From Burkholderiales bacterium (lineage in GTDB: Bacteria; Pseudomonadota; Gammaproteobacteria; Burkholderiales; Usitatibacteraceae): 64,000 nucleotides of DNA. The translations under genes were made by a program, and so were the position numbers. Positions 3-33,507 of this stretch are shown piece by piece. Positions within the stretch are counted from its first letter, which is position 1, and each line of letters begins with the position of its first letter. Location of the stretch: assembly GCA_019634955.1 (NCBI GenBank), contig JAHCAK010000014.1, positions 1 to 64,000 on the forward strand, in the 5' to 3' direction. The notes below the pieces were generated by a model. That model was not told where the DNA came from, did not search any database, and worked only from the letters and a program-made list of their open reading frames with translations.

Positions 3-2204
3 GACTTCTGCCAGGACGGGCGCGACCGCGTGATCGAGTACGTGCGCGGCAAGTACGGCGCGCAGAGCGTATCCCAGATCGCGACCTTCGGCACGATGGC
101 CGCCAAGGCCGTCGTTCGCGACGTCGGGCGCGTGCTCGGCATGGGCTTCGGCGAGGTCGACCGCATCGCCAAGCTGATCCCATTCCAGCTCGGCATCACG
201 CTGGACGAGGCCATCGCGTCGGAGCCGCAGCTGAAGGCCCTGATCGAGGAGCAGGAGGAGGTCGGCGAGCTCATGCGGCTGGCGAAGGCCCTCGAGGGCC
301 TCACCCGCAACGTGGGCATGCACGCGGGGGGCGTGCTCATCGCGCCCGGCAAGCTCACGGACTTCGCGCCGCTCTACTGTGCCGACGGCTCCACGCAGAC
401 GGTGAGCCAGTTCGACAAGGACGACGTCGAGAAGGCGGGCCTCGTCAAGTTCGACTTCCTCGGCCTCACCACGCTCACCATCATCGCGGAGTGCGAGCGC
501 CACATCCGCGCCATGGGCCGCCCGGACTTCGACATCCAGGCGATCGCGCTGGACGACCCGGCCGCCTACCGCGTGTTCTCCTCGGGCAACACGGTCGCCA
601 TCTTCCAGTTCGAATCGCGCGGCATGCGCGACCTCATCATGCGGGCGCGGCCGGACCGGCTGGAGGACCTCATCGCCCTGAACGCGCTCTACCGACCGGG
701 GCCGATGGACCTCATCCCCGAGTTCATCGAGCGCAAGCACGGCCGGCAGCGCTGGGAGTACCTCGACCCGCGGCTCAAGGAGATCCTCGACCCCACCTAC
801 GGCGTCATGACCTACCAGGAGCACGTCATGACGATCGCGCAGGTGATCGGCGGCTACACGCTGGGCGGCGCCGACCTCCTGCGCCGCGCGATGGGCAAGA
901 AGAAGCCCGAGGAGATGGCCAAGCAGCGCGAGATCTTCCTCAAGGGCGCGACCGGGCGCGGCCTGGAGGAGTCCCGGGCGACGGTGCTCTTCGACCAGAT
1001 GGAGAAGTTCGCGGGCTACGGCTTCAACAAGTCGCACTCCGCGGCCTACGCGCTGGTGGCCTACCAGACGGCCTACCTCAAGGCCCACTTCCCGGCGGCC
1101 TTCTGCGCGGCGAACCTGTCGGCGGTCATGAACGACACCGACAAGGTGCAGGTGATCTTCGACGACGCCCGCGCCAACGGCCTCGAGGTCCTGCCGCCCG
1201 ACGTGAACGCGGGCGGCTACCGCTTCGCGCCGCTGGACGCGCGGCGCGTGCGCTACGGGCTGGGGGCGGTGAAGGGCACCGGCGAGCAGGCGATCGAGAA
1301 CATCGTGGCCGCCCGCGAGGCGGGAGGGCCCTTCCGCGACCTGGGCGACTTCTGCCGGCGCGTCGACCGGAGAATCGTGAACCGCCGCGCCATGGAGGCC
1401 CTCGTGAAGTCGGGGGCGTTCGATTCGATCGAGCCCAACCGCGCGAGCCTCGCCGCCTCCCTGGGAGCGGCCCTCGAGCTCGCGGAGAAGGCCGAGCGCT
1501 TCGCGCAGCAGACGAGCCTCTTCGGCGGGGCGGAGGAGGCCGCGGCGGAGGCCTTCGAGCTGATGCGCGTGCCCGACTGGCCGGAGCGCGAGCGGCTGCT
1601 CGCGGAGAAGCAGAGCCTCGGCTTCTACCTGAGCGGGCACCCGTTCAGCGAGTGGCAGGGCGAGATCCGCCGCGTGGCCCGCACCCCGCTCGCCGAGCTG
1701 CGGCCCGCCAACGAGCCGCAGATGGCCGCCGGCGTGATCTACGGCGTGACGATGAGGAACTCCCGGCGCGGCCGCATGGCGGTGCTCACGCTCGACGACG
1801 CCACGGCACGCCTAGAGGTGGTGGTCTTCGGCGAGCTCTTCCACGAGAAGCGCGCCGTGATCCAGGAGGACCAGGTGGTGGTGGTGCAAGGCCGCGTGTC
1901 GCAGGACGACTTCTCCGGCGGCATCCGCTTCAGCGCCGACAAGCTCATGGACCTCGCCGAGGTCCGCAGCGCCTACGCGCGCGCGCTGCGCCTGTCGATC
2001 AACGGGCAGGCCGACTCCGCGAAGCTGCGCGCGCTCCTCGCGCCCTACCTCGGCGGCCGGTGCCCGGTGGCGATCCGCTACCGCAACGCCCAAGGCGAGT
2101 GCGACATCCGCCTGCCCGACGAGTACAAGGTGAAGGTGTCGGCGCCGCTGCTCGCCTCGCTGGGCGAGTGGCTCTCCGAGCGCAACGTCGAGGTGATCTA
2201 CTAG
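3..2204 (+). CDS. dnaE: DNA polymerase III subunit alpha (C-terminal part, 5' end outside window)
   Basis: This is the C-terminal two-thirds of the replicative polymerase catalytic subunit. The frame is open from base 3, so the true start lies upstream of the window. The visible residues match the DnaE palm, fingers and tHhH region: [28 protein letters not shown], the MGKKKPEEM helix, and [14 protein letters not shown] clamp-binding-type motif (QTSLFG, around base 1515) follows. The C-terminal OB-fold lies roughly at 1700-1950, before a short tail domain. It belongs to the DnaE1 class of Proteobacteria. The stop overlaps the convergent acylphosphatase stop by four bases (CTAG). Identification is secure; only the N-terminal PHP and early palm regions are missing. 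Confidence 0.97.
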
Positions 2205-2482
2205 GCGGTCGGGCGCTGCTCGAAGCCGCCGAATTCCCCCTCGTCCGGGGCCGACTCGACCCGGGTCACGCGGGCCGCCGGCGGGCCGCGGTGCGCCCAG
2301 GCGACGAGCGATTCGACCGCGGCGGCGGGGCCGGCGACCACGGCCTCCACCGTCCCGTCGCGCCGGTTCCGCACCCAGCCGCCGAGCCCCAGCCGGACCG
2401 CCTCCGCCTGCAGCGACCAGCGGAAGCCCACGCCCTGCACGACGCCGTGGATGCGCAGGTGCCGGCAGGCGCGCTCACTCAT
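2201..2482 (-). CDS. acyP: acylphosphatase
   Basis: Small cytosolic hydrolase of carboxyl-phosphate bonds (for example acetyl phosphate or carbamoyl phosphate), 93 residues, the usual family length. The phosphate-binding loop VQGVGFR lies at residues 15-21 with the catalytic Arg21. The second signature, [13 protein letters not shown], carries the catalytic Asn39. Its stop codon shares the tetranucleotide CTAG with the dnaE stop on the other strand. Its start overlaps the end of the upstream release-factor-like gene by eight bases, so the two are probably translated from one minus-strand message. The physiological substrate in bacteria is not settled. Confidence 0.95.
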
Positions 2483-2849
2483 CGCCGCCCACCCTGCCGC
2501 GCCCGCGCTTGGTGCGGCCGCGCAGCTTCTTCTCGCCGATGCGCCGCTCCCTGGAGGCGCGCGTGGGCTTCGTCGCCACGCGCTTCCTCGGCACGTGGTT
2601 CAGCCTTGCCAGGCGCCCGGCGAGCCTCTCGAAGGCGATGTCGCGGTTGCGGTGCTGCGAGGAGGAGTCCTGCGCGATCACCACCACGCCCGAGGGCGGG
2701 TGGAAGAGGCGCAGGGCGGACTCGGTGCGGTTCACGTGCTGCCCGCCCGGGCCGCTGGCGCGGAAGACCTCCACCACGACCTCGCGCTCGAGCGTCTCGC
2801 GATCGGTCGCGTAAGGGGGAGGGGAGAGGGGCGTGCGCCTCGTGGCCAT
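2475..2849 (-). CDS. GGQ-domain peptide chain release factor-like protein (ArfB-like)
   Basis: 124-residue protein made of a single class-I release-factor catalytic domain. The GGQ tripeptide (residues 35-37, within [10 protein letters not shown]) is the peptidyl-tRNA hydrolysis motif. The tail is rich in Lys and Arg ([15 protein letters not shown] and onward), as in ArfB/YaeJ, where the basic tail enters the empty mRNA channel of stalled ribosomes. No codon-recognition domain is present, so a ribosome-rescue or related hydrolase role is inferred rather than termination at stop codons. It lies between metG and acyP on the same strand, 24 bp after metG. It could instead belong to the less studied RF-like family found beside acyP or metG in betaproteobacteria. 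Confidence 0.85.
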
Positions 2850-2873
2850 CGCTTGCGCCGCGCGCCCGCGCGG

Positions 2874-5015
2874 CTACTTGATGCGCATGCCCGGCGTGGC
2901 GCCGGCGTCGGGGGCGAGGAGGTAGATGGAGCTGCCGTCGCCCGCGGCGAGCACCATGCCCTGGGATTCGCCGAAGCGCATCTTGCGCGGCGCGAGGTTC
3001 GCGACCATCACCGTGAGGCGCCCCACGAGGTCCTTGGGCGTATAGGCGGAGCGGATGCCGGCGAAGACCGTGCGCGTCTCGATGCCGATGTCGAGGGTGA
3101 GCTTGAGGAGCTTGTCGGCGTCCGCCACGAGCTCGGCGTCGACGATGCGCGCCACGCGCAGGTCGATCTTGCCGAAGTCGTCGATGGAGATGGTCTCGCC
3201 CACGGGCAGGACCGGCGCGGGCTTCGGCGGCTCCACGGGCTCCAGCCGGAACTCCGGCGCCTCGGGGGCGGCGGGCTTCGCGGGCTCCGGCTTCGCCTCC
3301 GACGGCGGCTCCAGCAGCTGCTCGATCTGCTTCGGGTCGATGCGCGAGAGCAGGTGCCGGTAGGCCTGCACGACGTGCCCCGGCCGCAGGGCGTTGGGCA
3401 CGTCCTCCCAGACGAGGGGCTTGGCGAGGGCGAGGAAGGCCTCGACGTCCTCGGCCACCTTCGGCAGCACCGGCTTCAGGTAGATGGTGAGGATGCGGAA
3501 GAGCTCGAGGTAGAGCGTGCAGAACCACTGCAGCGCCGCCTCCTGGCCGGGCTCCTTGGCGATCTCCCAGGGCTTCTGCTCGTCGACGTACTGGTTCACG
3601 CGGTCGGCGAGGAACATCACCTGCCGGATCGCCTTGCCGAACTCGCGGGCGTCGTAGTCGGCCGCGATCTGGTCGGCGAAGCTCCTCACCTCGAAGAGGA
3701 TGGCCGGCACCTGCTCCTCGTCGTCGGGGACCGGCGCGGCCACGTTGCCGCGCAGCTTGTGCTTGAGCTCGCGCCCGGCCGAGAGCGGCTCGTCGGAGAG
3801 GCGGCCGCCGAAGCGCTTCGAGATGAAGCCCGCGGCGCGGCTCGCGATGTTCACGTACTTGCCCACGAGGTCCGAGTTCACGCGGGCGACGAAGTCGTCG
3901 GGGTTGAAGTCGAGGTCCTCGACGCGGGCGTTGAGCTTGGCCGCGAGGTAGTAGCGCAGCCACTCGGGGTTCAGCCCCAGGTCGGCGTACTTCTGCGGGC
4001 TCACCGTGACGCCGCGCGACTTCGAGAGCTTCTCGCCGGTGAGGGTGAGGAAGCCGTGCACGTAGACGAAGTCCGGCACCTTGCGGCCGGAGAACTTCAG
4101 CATCGCCGGCCAGAAGAGGGCATGGAAGTAGATGATGTCCTTGCCGATGAAATGCACCTGCTCGACCTTCGGGTCGGCGATGTACTTCGCGAAGTCCTGG
4201 CCCTTTTTCTCGAGGTGGGCCTTCAGCGAGGCGAGGTAGCCGATGGGGGCGTCCAGCCACACGTAGAAGTACTTGCCCTTGGCGCCGGGGATCTCGATCC
4301 CGAAGTAGGGCGCGTCGCGCGTGATGTCCCAGTCGTTGAGCCCCCCGTCCAGCCACTCGCGCACCTTGTTGGCGACCTCCGGCTGCAGCCGCCCGTCCTG
4401 CGTCCAGGCCTTGAGGAACTCGACGCAGCGCGGGTCGGAGAGGCGGAAGAAGAAGTGCTCGGACTTCTTCATCACGGGGGTGGCCCCGGTGAGCGCCGAG
4501 AAGGGGTTCTTCAGGTCCGTGGGCGTGTAGACGGCCCCGCAGCTCTCGCAGGAGTCGCCGTACTGGTCCTTGGCGCCGCACTTCGGGCACTCGCCCTTGA
4601 TGTAGCGGTCCGGGAGGAACATCCCCTTCACGGGGTCGAAGAACTGCTCGATCGTCTTCGTGGCGATGAAGCCCTCGGCCTTCAGCGCCGCGAAGATCTC
4701 GCCCGCGAGCTCGCGGTTCTCGGGCGAGTGCGTCGAGTGGAAGTGGTCGAAGCTCACCCCGAAGCGCGCGAGGTCCTTGCGGTGGGATTCCGCCACCCGC
4801 GCGATGAGCTCCTCGGGCGTCACGCCCTCGGCTTCGGCCTTGAGCATGATGGGCGCGCCGTGCGTGTCGTCGGCGCACACGAAGTTCACCTTGTGCCCCT
4901 GCAGCCGCTGGAAGCGCACCCAGATGTCGGCCTGGGTGTACTCCATGATGTGCCCGATGTGGAAGGGCCCGTTGGCGTACGGAAGCGCCGTCGTGACGAA
5001 AAGCTTTCGGGGCAT
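2874..5015 (-). CDS. metG: methionine--tRNA ligase
   Basis: Charges initiator and elongator tRNA-Met in the cytoplasm; 713 residues. The class I HIGH motif is HIGH at residues 19-22 and the KMSKS loop is KLSKS at 329-333. A four-cysteine zinc knuckle (Cys143, 146, 156, 159) marks the MetG1 type. An Ala/Pro/Glu-rich linker leads to a C-terminal Trbp111-like tRNA-binding OB domain (about residues 608-713, beginning [16 protein letters not shown]), which mediates dimerisation. The frame stays open to 5132, but the N-terminal family motif [14 protein letters not shown] begins three residues after the ATG at 5015, so that start is chosen. It is divergently transcribed from apbC across about 185 bp. 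Confidence 0.96.
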
Positions 5016-30697: not shown

Positions 30698-31185
30698 CGG
30701 AAATCGACGAGCTTTCGGCCCGCGTGGGCGAAGCCTGCCGCCGGGCCGGCCTGACGGTCGCGACGGCGGAATCCTGCACCGGCGGCGGCGTGGCGGAGGC
30801 CGTCACCCGGACGGCGGGCAGCTCCGCCTGGTTCGACCGCGGCTTCATCGCCTATGCCAACGCGGCGAAGGTGGACCTCCTGGGCGTGCGGCAGGAGACG
30901 CTGGGCACCCACGGCGCGGTGTCCGAAGCCGTGGCGCGCGAGATGGCGCTGGGGGCCCTGCACCAGAGCGATGCCGACCTCGCGGTCGCAGTGACCGGCG
31001 TGGCCGGGCCCGGCGGAGGCACGGCGACCAAGCCCGTGGGCCTGGTCTGGTTCGCCTGGGCCTCCCTGGGCGGCACCGTGGAGTCCCGCTTCGAGATCTT
31101 CGGCGGGGACCGCGCGGCCGTGCGCGACCAGGCGGTTCGCGAGGCGCTGAAGGGGCTGCTGGATCTCGCGTCCCGCGAGGGCTGA
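30694..31185 (+). CDS. pncC: nicotinamide-nucleotide amidohydrolase (CinA C-terminal family)
   Basis: 163-residue single-domain CinA-C protein that deamidates NMN to nicotinate mononucleotide, salvaging NMN released by DNA ligase. The active-site stretch is ATAESCTGGGVAEAVTRTAG near residues 24-43. GVRQETLGTHGAVSEAVAREMA and AVTGVAGPGGGTATKPVGLVW follow; all are typical. The N-terminal COG1058 domain of full CinA is absent, as in E. coli PncC. It overlaps the GNAT gene (ATGA). Upstream of recA this reproduces the enterobacterial order pncC-recA-recX-alaS, except that lexA is placed between pncC and recA. Confidence 0.94.
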   Translation: MTEIDELSARVGEACRRAGLTVATAESCTGGGVAEAVTRTAGSSAWFDRGFIAYANAAKVDLLGVRQETLGTHGAVSEAVAREMALGALHQSDADLAVAVTGVAGPGGGTATKPVGLVWFAWASLGGTVESRFEIFGGDRAAVRDQAVREALKGLLDLASREG

Positions 31186-31217: not shown

Positions 31218-31246
31218 TTGACACCAGAACGATCGTTCTGTAGCTT
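31218..31246 (+). promoter_or_regulatory. lexA(-recA) promoter
   Basis: A perfect -35 TTGACA (31218-31223) is followed at the ideal 17 bp by TAGCTT (31241-31246), a weak -10. The whole spacer (31225-31240) is the first LexA-type palindrome, and the second palindrome covers the predicted start region. Repressor binding would block polymerase directly. Confidence 0.75.
31225..31240 (+). promoter_or_regulatory. LexA operator 1 (perfect palindrome)
   Basis: CAGAACGATCGTTCTG is a perfect 16-bp palindrome with core GAAC-N4-GTTC. This differs from the enterobacterial CTGT-N8-ACAG box and resembles the Bacillus-type CGAAC-N4-GTTCG box. It fills the -35/-10 spacer. Its role is inferred from position and from the adjacent lexA gene. 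Confidence 0.8.
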
Positions 31247-31247
31247 A

Positions 31248-31263
31248 CCGAACAATCGTTCTG
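31248..31263 (+). promoter_or_regulatory. LexA operator 2 (imperfect palindrome)
   Basis: CCGAACAATCGTTCTG matches operator 1 at 14 of 16 positions. It is centred 23 bp downstream, about two helical turns, so two LexA dimers could bind the same face of the DNA. It ends 18 bp before the lexA ATG. Confidence 0.78.
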
Positions 31264-31281: not shown

Positions 31282-31878
31282 ATGGCGTTGAAGCAGCAGC
31301 AGCCCCTCGACCCGGCGTACCTGGAGAAGCTCCAGGACTACTACGCCGAGCACAAGGTGATCCCCTCCTACTCGGTCCTCGCCTCGCTGTGGGGGATCTC
31401 GGCCAAGTCGTGGGTGTCGGAGTGCGTGCGGCGCTTCGAGGAAGCGGGGTACCTGGACTGGACGCCGGACCGGCAGCTGAAGCCCGGGGCCCGGTTCTTC
31501 GAGCGGCGCCTCGCGCACGACACCGTGCAGGCGGGGCTCCCCAACCCGGCGCTCGCCGACGGCTACGACCTCGTCACGATCGACGACTACCTGGTGCGCG
31601 TGCCGTCGAAGACGAGCCTCGTGCGCGTGAAGGGCGACTCGATGATCGACGCCGGCATCCACGAGGGCGACCTCATCGTGGTCGAGCAGCAGCCCAACGC
31701 GAACGTGGGCGACATCGTCGTCGCCATCGTGGACAACGAATTCACCGTGAAGTACCTGGACCGAGAAAAAGGCGCGTTCGTCCTGAAGCCCGCGAACAAG
31801 GCCTTCCCGGTCATCCGCCCGAAGGGGCGCCTGGAGATTTTCGGTGTGATGGCGGGGTTGGTGCGCAGGACGCGCTGA
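31282..31878 (+). CDS. lexA: LexA-family SOS repressor, divergent DNA-binding domain
   Basis: 198-residue S24-family repressor. An N-terminal winged helix ([20 protein letters not shown], about residues 27-46) replaces the usual LexA recognition helix sequence. The autocleavage site is Ala84-Gly85. The catalytic Ser is Ser120 ([10 protein letters not shown]) and the general-base Lys is Lys157 (FTVKYL). These are the residues needed for RecA-stimulated self-cleavage. Two GAAC-N4-GTTC palindromes overlap its promoter, so it is probably autoregulated. recA follows 85 bp later, and no such operator is seen in between, so recA may depend partly on this promoter. Whether a second, canonical lexA exists elsewhere cannot be seen. 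Confidence 0.88.
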
Positions 31879-31917: not shown

Positions 31918-31963
31918 TCCGATGCTCAAAGTCATCTCCACCCCCGCCGGCGAAACCCCCAAG

Positions 31964-33004
<1,041 letters not shown>

Positions 33005-33030: not shown

Positions 33031-33507
33031 ATGTCCCCCGGGTTCACCGAACCCACGCCCGAGGCGGCCCTGCGCACGCGCGCGTTGAGGCTGCTCGCCC
33101 GGCGCGAGCACTCCCGGGCCGAGCTGCGTCGAAAGCTCGCGCCCCAGGCCGAGGAAGGGGGCGTCGATGTCGATGCCCTCCTCGACGACTTCACGAGCCG
33201 CGGGTGGCTTTCCGAAGAGCGCTTCGTCGAGCAGGCGGTTCGGGCGAAGGCTCGCCGGTACGGGCCCCTCAAGATCGCGCAGCACCTGCGCGAGAGGGGC
33301 ATCGACGAGGCGGGCATCGAGAAGGGCCTCGCGCAGGCCAGGGCGGGGGAGGGCGAGGCCCTCGCCTCGGCCTGGCGCGCGCGCTTTGGCCGGCTGCCTG
33401 CCGACGAGGCCGACAAGGCGAGGCAGGTCCGCTTCCTGCAGCAGCGGGGCTTTCCCTTGGAGGAGGTCCTGCGCTTCCTCAAGTCGCGACCCGACGCCAT
33501 GCGCTGA
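33031..33507 (+). CDS. recX: regulatory protein RecX
   Basis: 158-residue helical protein built of three-helix repeats that caps and limits RecA filament growth. Family-like segments include [19 protein letters not shown] (residues 15-33), [20 protein letters not shown] (near 54-73), [16 protein letters not shown] and the C-terminal [20 protein letters not shown]. It begins 27 bp after recA, the usual coupling. The short gap and lack of a terminator suggest read-through from recA. Confidence 0.94.

Follow-up and report, generated by a model that had tools for sequence, protein, structure and literature searches.

Which repressor controls recA at this betaproteobacterial locus, and through which operator? 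The window (the whole analysed stretch of 64,000 nucleotides) carries cinA, lexA, recA and recX in this order, and a TTGACA hexamer, a palindrome and a second box lie directly 5' of lexA-recA-recX (Table 1). The LexA encoded there, below the window LexA, very probably controls lexA-recA through these boxes of the form GAAC-N4-GTTC, with binding predicted from their sequence.

Table 1. Features of the lexA-recA locus in window coordinates, and of the second lexA locus (L306, outside the window) in its own coordinates.
Feature	Coordinates	Strand	Basis
cinA/pncC, upstream of promoter, context only	30700..31185	+	
Predicted sigma-70 promoter of the lexA-recA operon: TTGACA, 17-bp spacer, TAGCTT	31218..31246	+	direct sequence
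TTGACA hexamer	31218..31223		window sequence
Promoter spacer CCAGAACGATCGTTCTG, 17 bp	31224..31240		
TAGCTT hexamer	31241..31246		
Predicted operator O1, CAGAACGATCGTTCTG, fills promoter spacer	31225..31240	.	sequence and conservation
Predicted operator O2, CCGAACAATCGTTCTG, over expected transcription start	31248..31263	.	sequence and conservation
Non-canonical lexA, 198 aa product	31282..31878	+	domain searches, conserved residues, model
recA, 43 bp after lexA, predicted same operon	31922..33004	+	
recX, predicted same operon	33031..33507	+	
L306: canonical-type lexA	515..1153		
L306: imuA	1150..1842		
L306: imuB	1852..3297		
L306: dnaE2	to 6385		

O1 is a perfect 16-bp palindrome (symmetry 16/16), and O2, 23 bp downstream, matches it at 14 of 16 positions; the initial annotation had described TTGACA, the palindrome in the spacer and its downstream copy in these terms, and the sequence bears it out. 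Exact GAAC-N4-GTTC occurs three times in the window, against a mean of 0.62 in 300 dinucleotide shuffles, and two exact boxes within 60 bp were seen in none of the 300, so that the pair before lexA-recA is beyond chance. The bare 8-base core with one mismatch allowed is no commoner in the window than expected (16 sites vs 19); hence, what counts is that the boxes are extended, paired and conserved. As also annotated, the boxes are not of the CTGT-N8-ACAG kind: reading of the lexA-recA promoter reveals none. The window genome thus does not appear to follow the canonical beta/gammaproteobacterial scheme, defined by CTGT-N8-ACAG at lexA and recA.

Scanning of genome contigs yielded 79 loci with relatives of the window LexA (window-type LexAs), mostly in Betaproteobacteria; the distant relatives are from Patescibacteria, Omnitrophota, and Gastranaerophilales. 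Exact GAAC-N4-GTTC lies within 120 bp of the window-type lexA in 41 of 59 betaproteobacterial loci, two such boxes are present in 19/59, and control segments from the same loci contain the motif in 10 of 2961 cases; the exact box is missing in 18/59 loci, several of which have altered palindromes at the same place. The nine closest relatives (L018–L026) share the promoter layout, and each has at least two boxes: exact GAAC-N4-GTTC at O1 is kept, and the second box is kept in 9/9. In all nine, recA is the next match 3' of lexA (at 44–74 bp in eight, at 468 bp in L025), followed by recX in L021 and L023–L026; in distant betaproteobacterial loci recA is not beside the window-type lexA. The Bacillus-like character noted at first also stands, since GAAC-N4-GTTC is the operator core of Bacillus subtilis LexA (DinR); the recognition helix of DinR, judged by eye, differs from that of the window LexA.

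Several relatives show variant operators or neighbours. In five loci (L028–L030, L034, L035; Methylophilaceae and one MAG) GTAC-N4-GTAC replaces GAAC-N4-GTTC before the window-type lexA, while in Rhodocyclaceae (L064, L065, L068) lexA promoters have GTGTTC-N4-GAACAC-like palindromes, with the half-sites turned round. The GAAC-N4-GTTC box is also present in two Omnitrophota relatives, and recA is close by in one of the two; in L086, from this different phylum, GAACGGTCGTTC is in the promoter spacer of the related lexA, and matches to recA and alaS follow 3' of it. A one-residue code, with an Asn in the helix specifying the GTAC boxes of Methylophilaceae, was considered and dropped, because Omnitrophota with the same Asn keep GAAC boxes. 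In L033, L045, L053, and L329 the relative of the window LexA and a candidate defence module of two genes (PADLOC calls PDC-M30/M41 in L045 and L053) are arranged head-to-head, and a GAAC-N4-GTTC box lies in the interval; a DarG gene is near the LexA relative in L053, and in L330 the relative adjoins a type I restriction enzyme gene. In loci of the L033, L045, L053, and L329 type, a LexA-like repressor may control defence genes.

The window LexA contains an S24 peptidase domain (PF00717, E 6e-26). It has no match to Pfam PF01726 (LexA_DNA_bind) and scores 91.3 bits on TIGR00498, under the cut-off of 110.95; among NCBIfam models the UmuD family matches best, again below the cut-off and over the C-terminal half. 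By PF01726 and TIGR00498 it would be placed outside canonical LexA. The cleavage residues are intact and the recognition helix unusual, as annotated: Ala84-Gly85, Ser120, and Lys157 are present, with Gly85, Ser120, and Lys157 invariant and Ala84 nearly invariant in 56 sequences, and self-cleavage of the S24 type is predicted. In an AlphaFold model built from 56 relatives (pLDDT 85.6), the N-terminus forms helices 11–24, 30–37, and 42–54 and two short strands, which we assign as a winged-helix DNA-binding domain. The best PDB matches of the model are LexA of Thermotoga and E. coli LexA–DNA complexes (E 3e-12 to 5e-10), and its C-terminal half matches UmuD'; whole-chain TM-scores against LexA structures are low (about 0.45, rmsd 13–16 A), as the arrangement of the two domains is different. 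The protein is divergent, with a model resembling that of a LexA. The UmuD-like C-terminal half is shared with UmuDAb of Acinetobacter, a genus without LexA where DdrR is the corepressor (PMC11332147); unlike UmuDAb, the window protein has the length and fold of LexA and is linked to recA.

In the phylogenetic tree window-type LexAs form their own, patchily spread branch, apart from E. coli LexA and from the canonical-type LexA of the same genome. This branch of 61 rows (support 99*) comprises the window LexA and 60 other non-canonical betaproteobacterial LexAs, including those of Gallionellaceae, Methylophilaceae, and Thiobacillaceae; Sideroxyarcus/Gallionellaceae members are about 55% identical to the window LexA, and LexA of S. 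lithotrophicus itself was left out of the tree set. Novelty for Betaproteobacteria, as implied by the annotation, has to be given up: going by its title, quoted in PMC8565304, a non-canonical LexA-binding motif of this class is the subject of Sanchez-Alberola et al. (2015, J Bacteriol 197:2622), hence the headline of the finding is known in kind. The window LexA appears to belong to that type, its branch being separate from the canonical one and shared with Gallionellaceae and Nitrosomonadales, and its predicted operator at lexA being GAAC-N4-GTTC. In that 2015 work, the LexA of Sideroxydans lithotrophicus and Gallionella is said to recognise GAACGaaCGTTC, to control a six-gene regulon and to have been transferred laterally. 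Common to both are a non-canonical betaproteobacterial LexA, GAAC-N4-GTTC, an unusual DNA-binding domain, and signs of lateral spread; unlike the 2015 type, the window lexA shares an operon with recA behind a pair of boxes, and its product seems to have few other targets and is accompanied by a canonical-type LexA.

The most likely mode of action, judged from established LexA biology together with the sequence, is repression by the window LexA of its own lexA-recA(-recX) operon via O1 and O2. Dimers bound at O1 would cover the promoter spacer and those at O2 the start site, so that the promoter would be blocked; upon DNA damage RecA filaments would trigger self-cleavage at Ala84-Gly85 and thereby induction of the operon. 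Repressor and sensor would both be under negative feedback in such a circuit.

The annotation further envisaged an SOS regulon with a different code; we observe no wide regulon. The best genome-wide matches to the operator are the lexA operators themselves, and exact GAACNNTCGTTCTG in five genomes is always at lexA, except for one site inside a coding region of G000. AGAACN4GTTCT with at most one mismatch yields 14 sites genome-wide vs 17 for the reversed control, which makes the bare-core search uninformative. The remaining motif matches are within coding sequences or next to genes that could not be recognised as SOS genes, and in 15 stretches around weaker sites, read by eye, no recognisable SOS gene is under such a site. 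At the stringency used, the predicted regulon comprises lexA-recA(-recX) alone, and weak or degenerate sites are possible.

One of the matches bears on a different reading, that a repressor unrelated to LexA, of the TetR family or another, acts at the palindromes, with LexA control absent or exerted at another site. A TetR-family gene of G000 has GAACGGTCGTTCTA in its promoter (G000:C13:9089-9102, L307), almost identical to the LexA operator, so that cross-talk is possible; the same 14-mer is found at G008:C4:292792 and G024:C1:2469839. However, the boxes accompany window-type lexA in many betaproteobacterial lineages, where its neighbours are unrelated, and no TetR gene adjoins lexA in the window, which makes control by such a repressor very unlikely. 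The reading that the window LexA acts at its own boxes is retained below.

A second canonical lexA, whose presence the annotation had proposed to check, was indeed found in the window genome. It encodes a canonical-type LexA (TIGR00498, 206.9 bits; PF01726 matched) and is the first gene of a complete lexA-imuA-imuB-dnaE2 operon (L306), the gene order of a lexA2-imuA-imuB-dnaE2 cassette. For comparison within the window's family (f1), genera are denoted g1–g4 and genomes G000, G008, etc.; G024 is the complete genome of strain GR16-43. Cassette lexA promoters of g1 and g4 carry one or two copies of GGTGATA-N4-TATCACC or close variants in 10/10 loci read. With at most one mismatch, this motif occurs genome-wide only before the cassette lexA in G000, G022, G023, and G024, and has no site in G008 and G009; it is apparently a new operator of canonical-type LexA, as predicted from sequence. 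The recognition helix of the canonical-type LexA is SPNAAEEHL in g3 vs forms such as STNGVQKHL and STNAVFKHL in g1 and g4.

Two LexAs per cell, one heading an imu mutagenesis cassette, resemble the situation in Pseudomonas putida, where LexA1 and LexA2, the latter encoded in lexA2-imuA-imuB-imuC, have two regulons (PMC3901139, PMC5261740). By this precedent, and since both proteins are encoded in one genome, the cassette LexA might also control lexA-recA and leave the window LexA as an accessory repressor. We consider this highly improbable: neither CTGT-N8-ACAG nor GGTGATA boxes are present at lexA-recA, GGTGATA boxes (at most one mismatch) are found only at the cassette, and the recognition helices of the two LexAs differ strongly. 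The P. putida LexA on the recA side is canonical in type, whereas both apparent codes of the window genome differ from CTGT-N8-ACAG. With the window LexA as the repressor of recA, the SOS response of this genome would consist of two small circuits, each LexA with its own boxes and neither using CTGT-N8-ACAG.

The distribution of the two types in f1 suggests how this arrangement arose. In g3, a canonical-type LexA match is present in 12 of 13 genomes and a strong window-type match in none; the lexA promoters and the readable recA promoters have CTGT-N8-ACAG or close variants. Genera g1 and g4 have both LexA types in 9/14 genomes, while in the other five one or both were not found, most of these assemblies being incomplete. 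CTGTAT-N4-ATACAG with at most one mismatch has 0, 1, 0, and 0 sites in G000, G022, G023, and G024, respectively, and 7–9 sites in each of five g3 genomes. A single group (84% SH-aLRT), with long branches, unites the canonical-type LexAs of g1, g4, and g3, as would be expected, though not proven, if the native LexA diverged in place. Genus g2 (G008, 89% complete) has a window-type lexA upstream of recA; a canonical lexA was not found in this assembly, and one CTGT-like box, CTGTATAAATATTCAG, precedes imuA (G008:C9:61132-61147, L274). Uniqueness of cohabitation to f1 was considered and rejected: among 321 surveyed genomes of the class, four have a window-type LexA, and three of these also have a canonical one.

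A stepwise change of the native canonical LexA and its operator into the window LexA and its boxes, to which the canonical lexA and CTGT boxes of the sister genus g3 might point, is very improbable, as g1/g4 also encode a canonical-type LexA that groups with the g3 protein, while the window LexA belongs to the 99* branch, apart from the canonical proteins. The separate branch and the coexisting canonical-type LexA likewise do not fit the annotated mechanism, in which the DNA-binding domain and operator of this LexA had changed together. With reasonable confidence, we infer instead that the window LexA was acquired laterally and took over recA from the native canonical LexA, which now heads lexA-imuA-imuB-dnaE2 and seems to use GGTGATA-N4-TATCACC. 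The SOS response of f1 would probably have been split in this way: a foreign LexA captured recA, and the cassette LexA changed its helix and its operator, from CTGT-N8-ACAG to GGTGATA-N4-TATCACC.

The window LexA and its operator are of an already published kind; capture of the recA operon, together with a second LexA with an apparently changed box, is what looks new, and we think it probably is. The finding addresses the question of how the DNA code of a global repressor can shift while its regulon stays intact, as f1 appears to hold the state before (g3), a possible intermediate (g2), and the state after (g1, g4): a single canonical LexA, then capture of recA by a foreign LexA, then a native LexA free to change its box. 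If this is true, the ancestral state is kept in the sister genus g3, with a possible intermediate in g2, and separate repressors would govern recombination and mutagenesis in the damage response.
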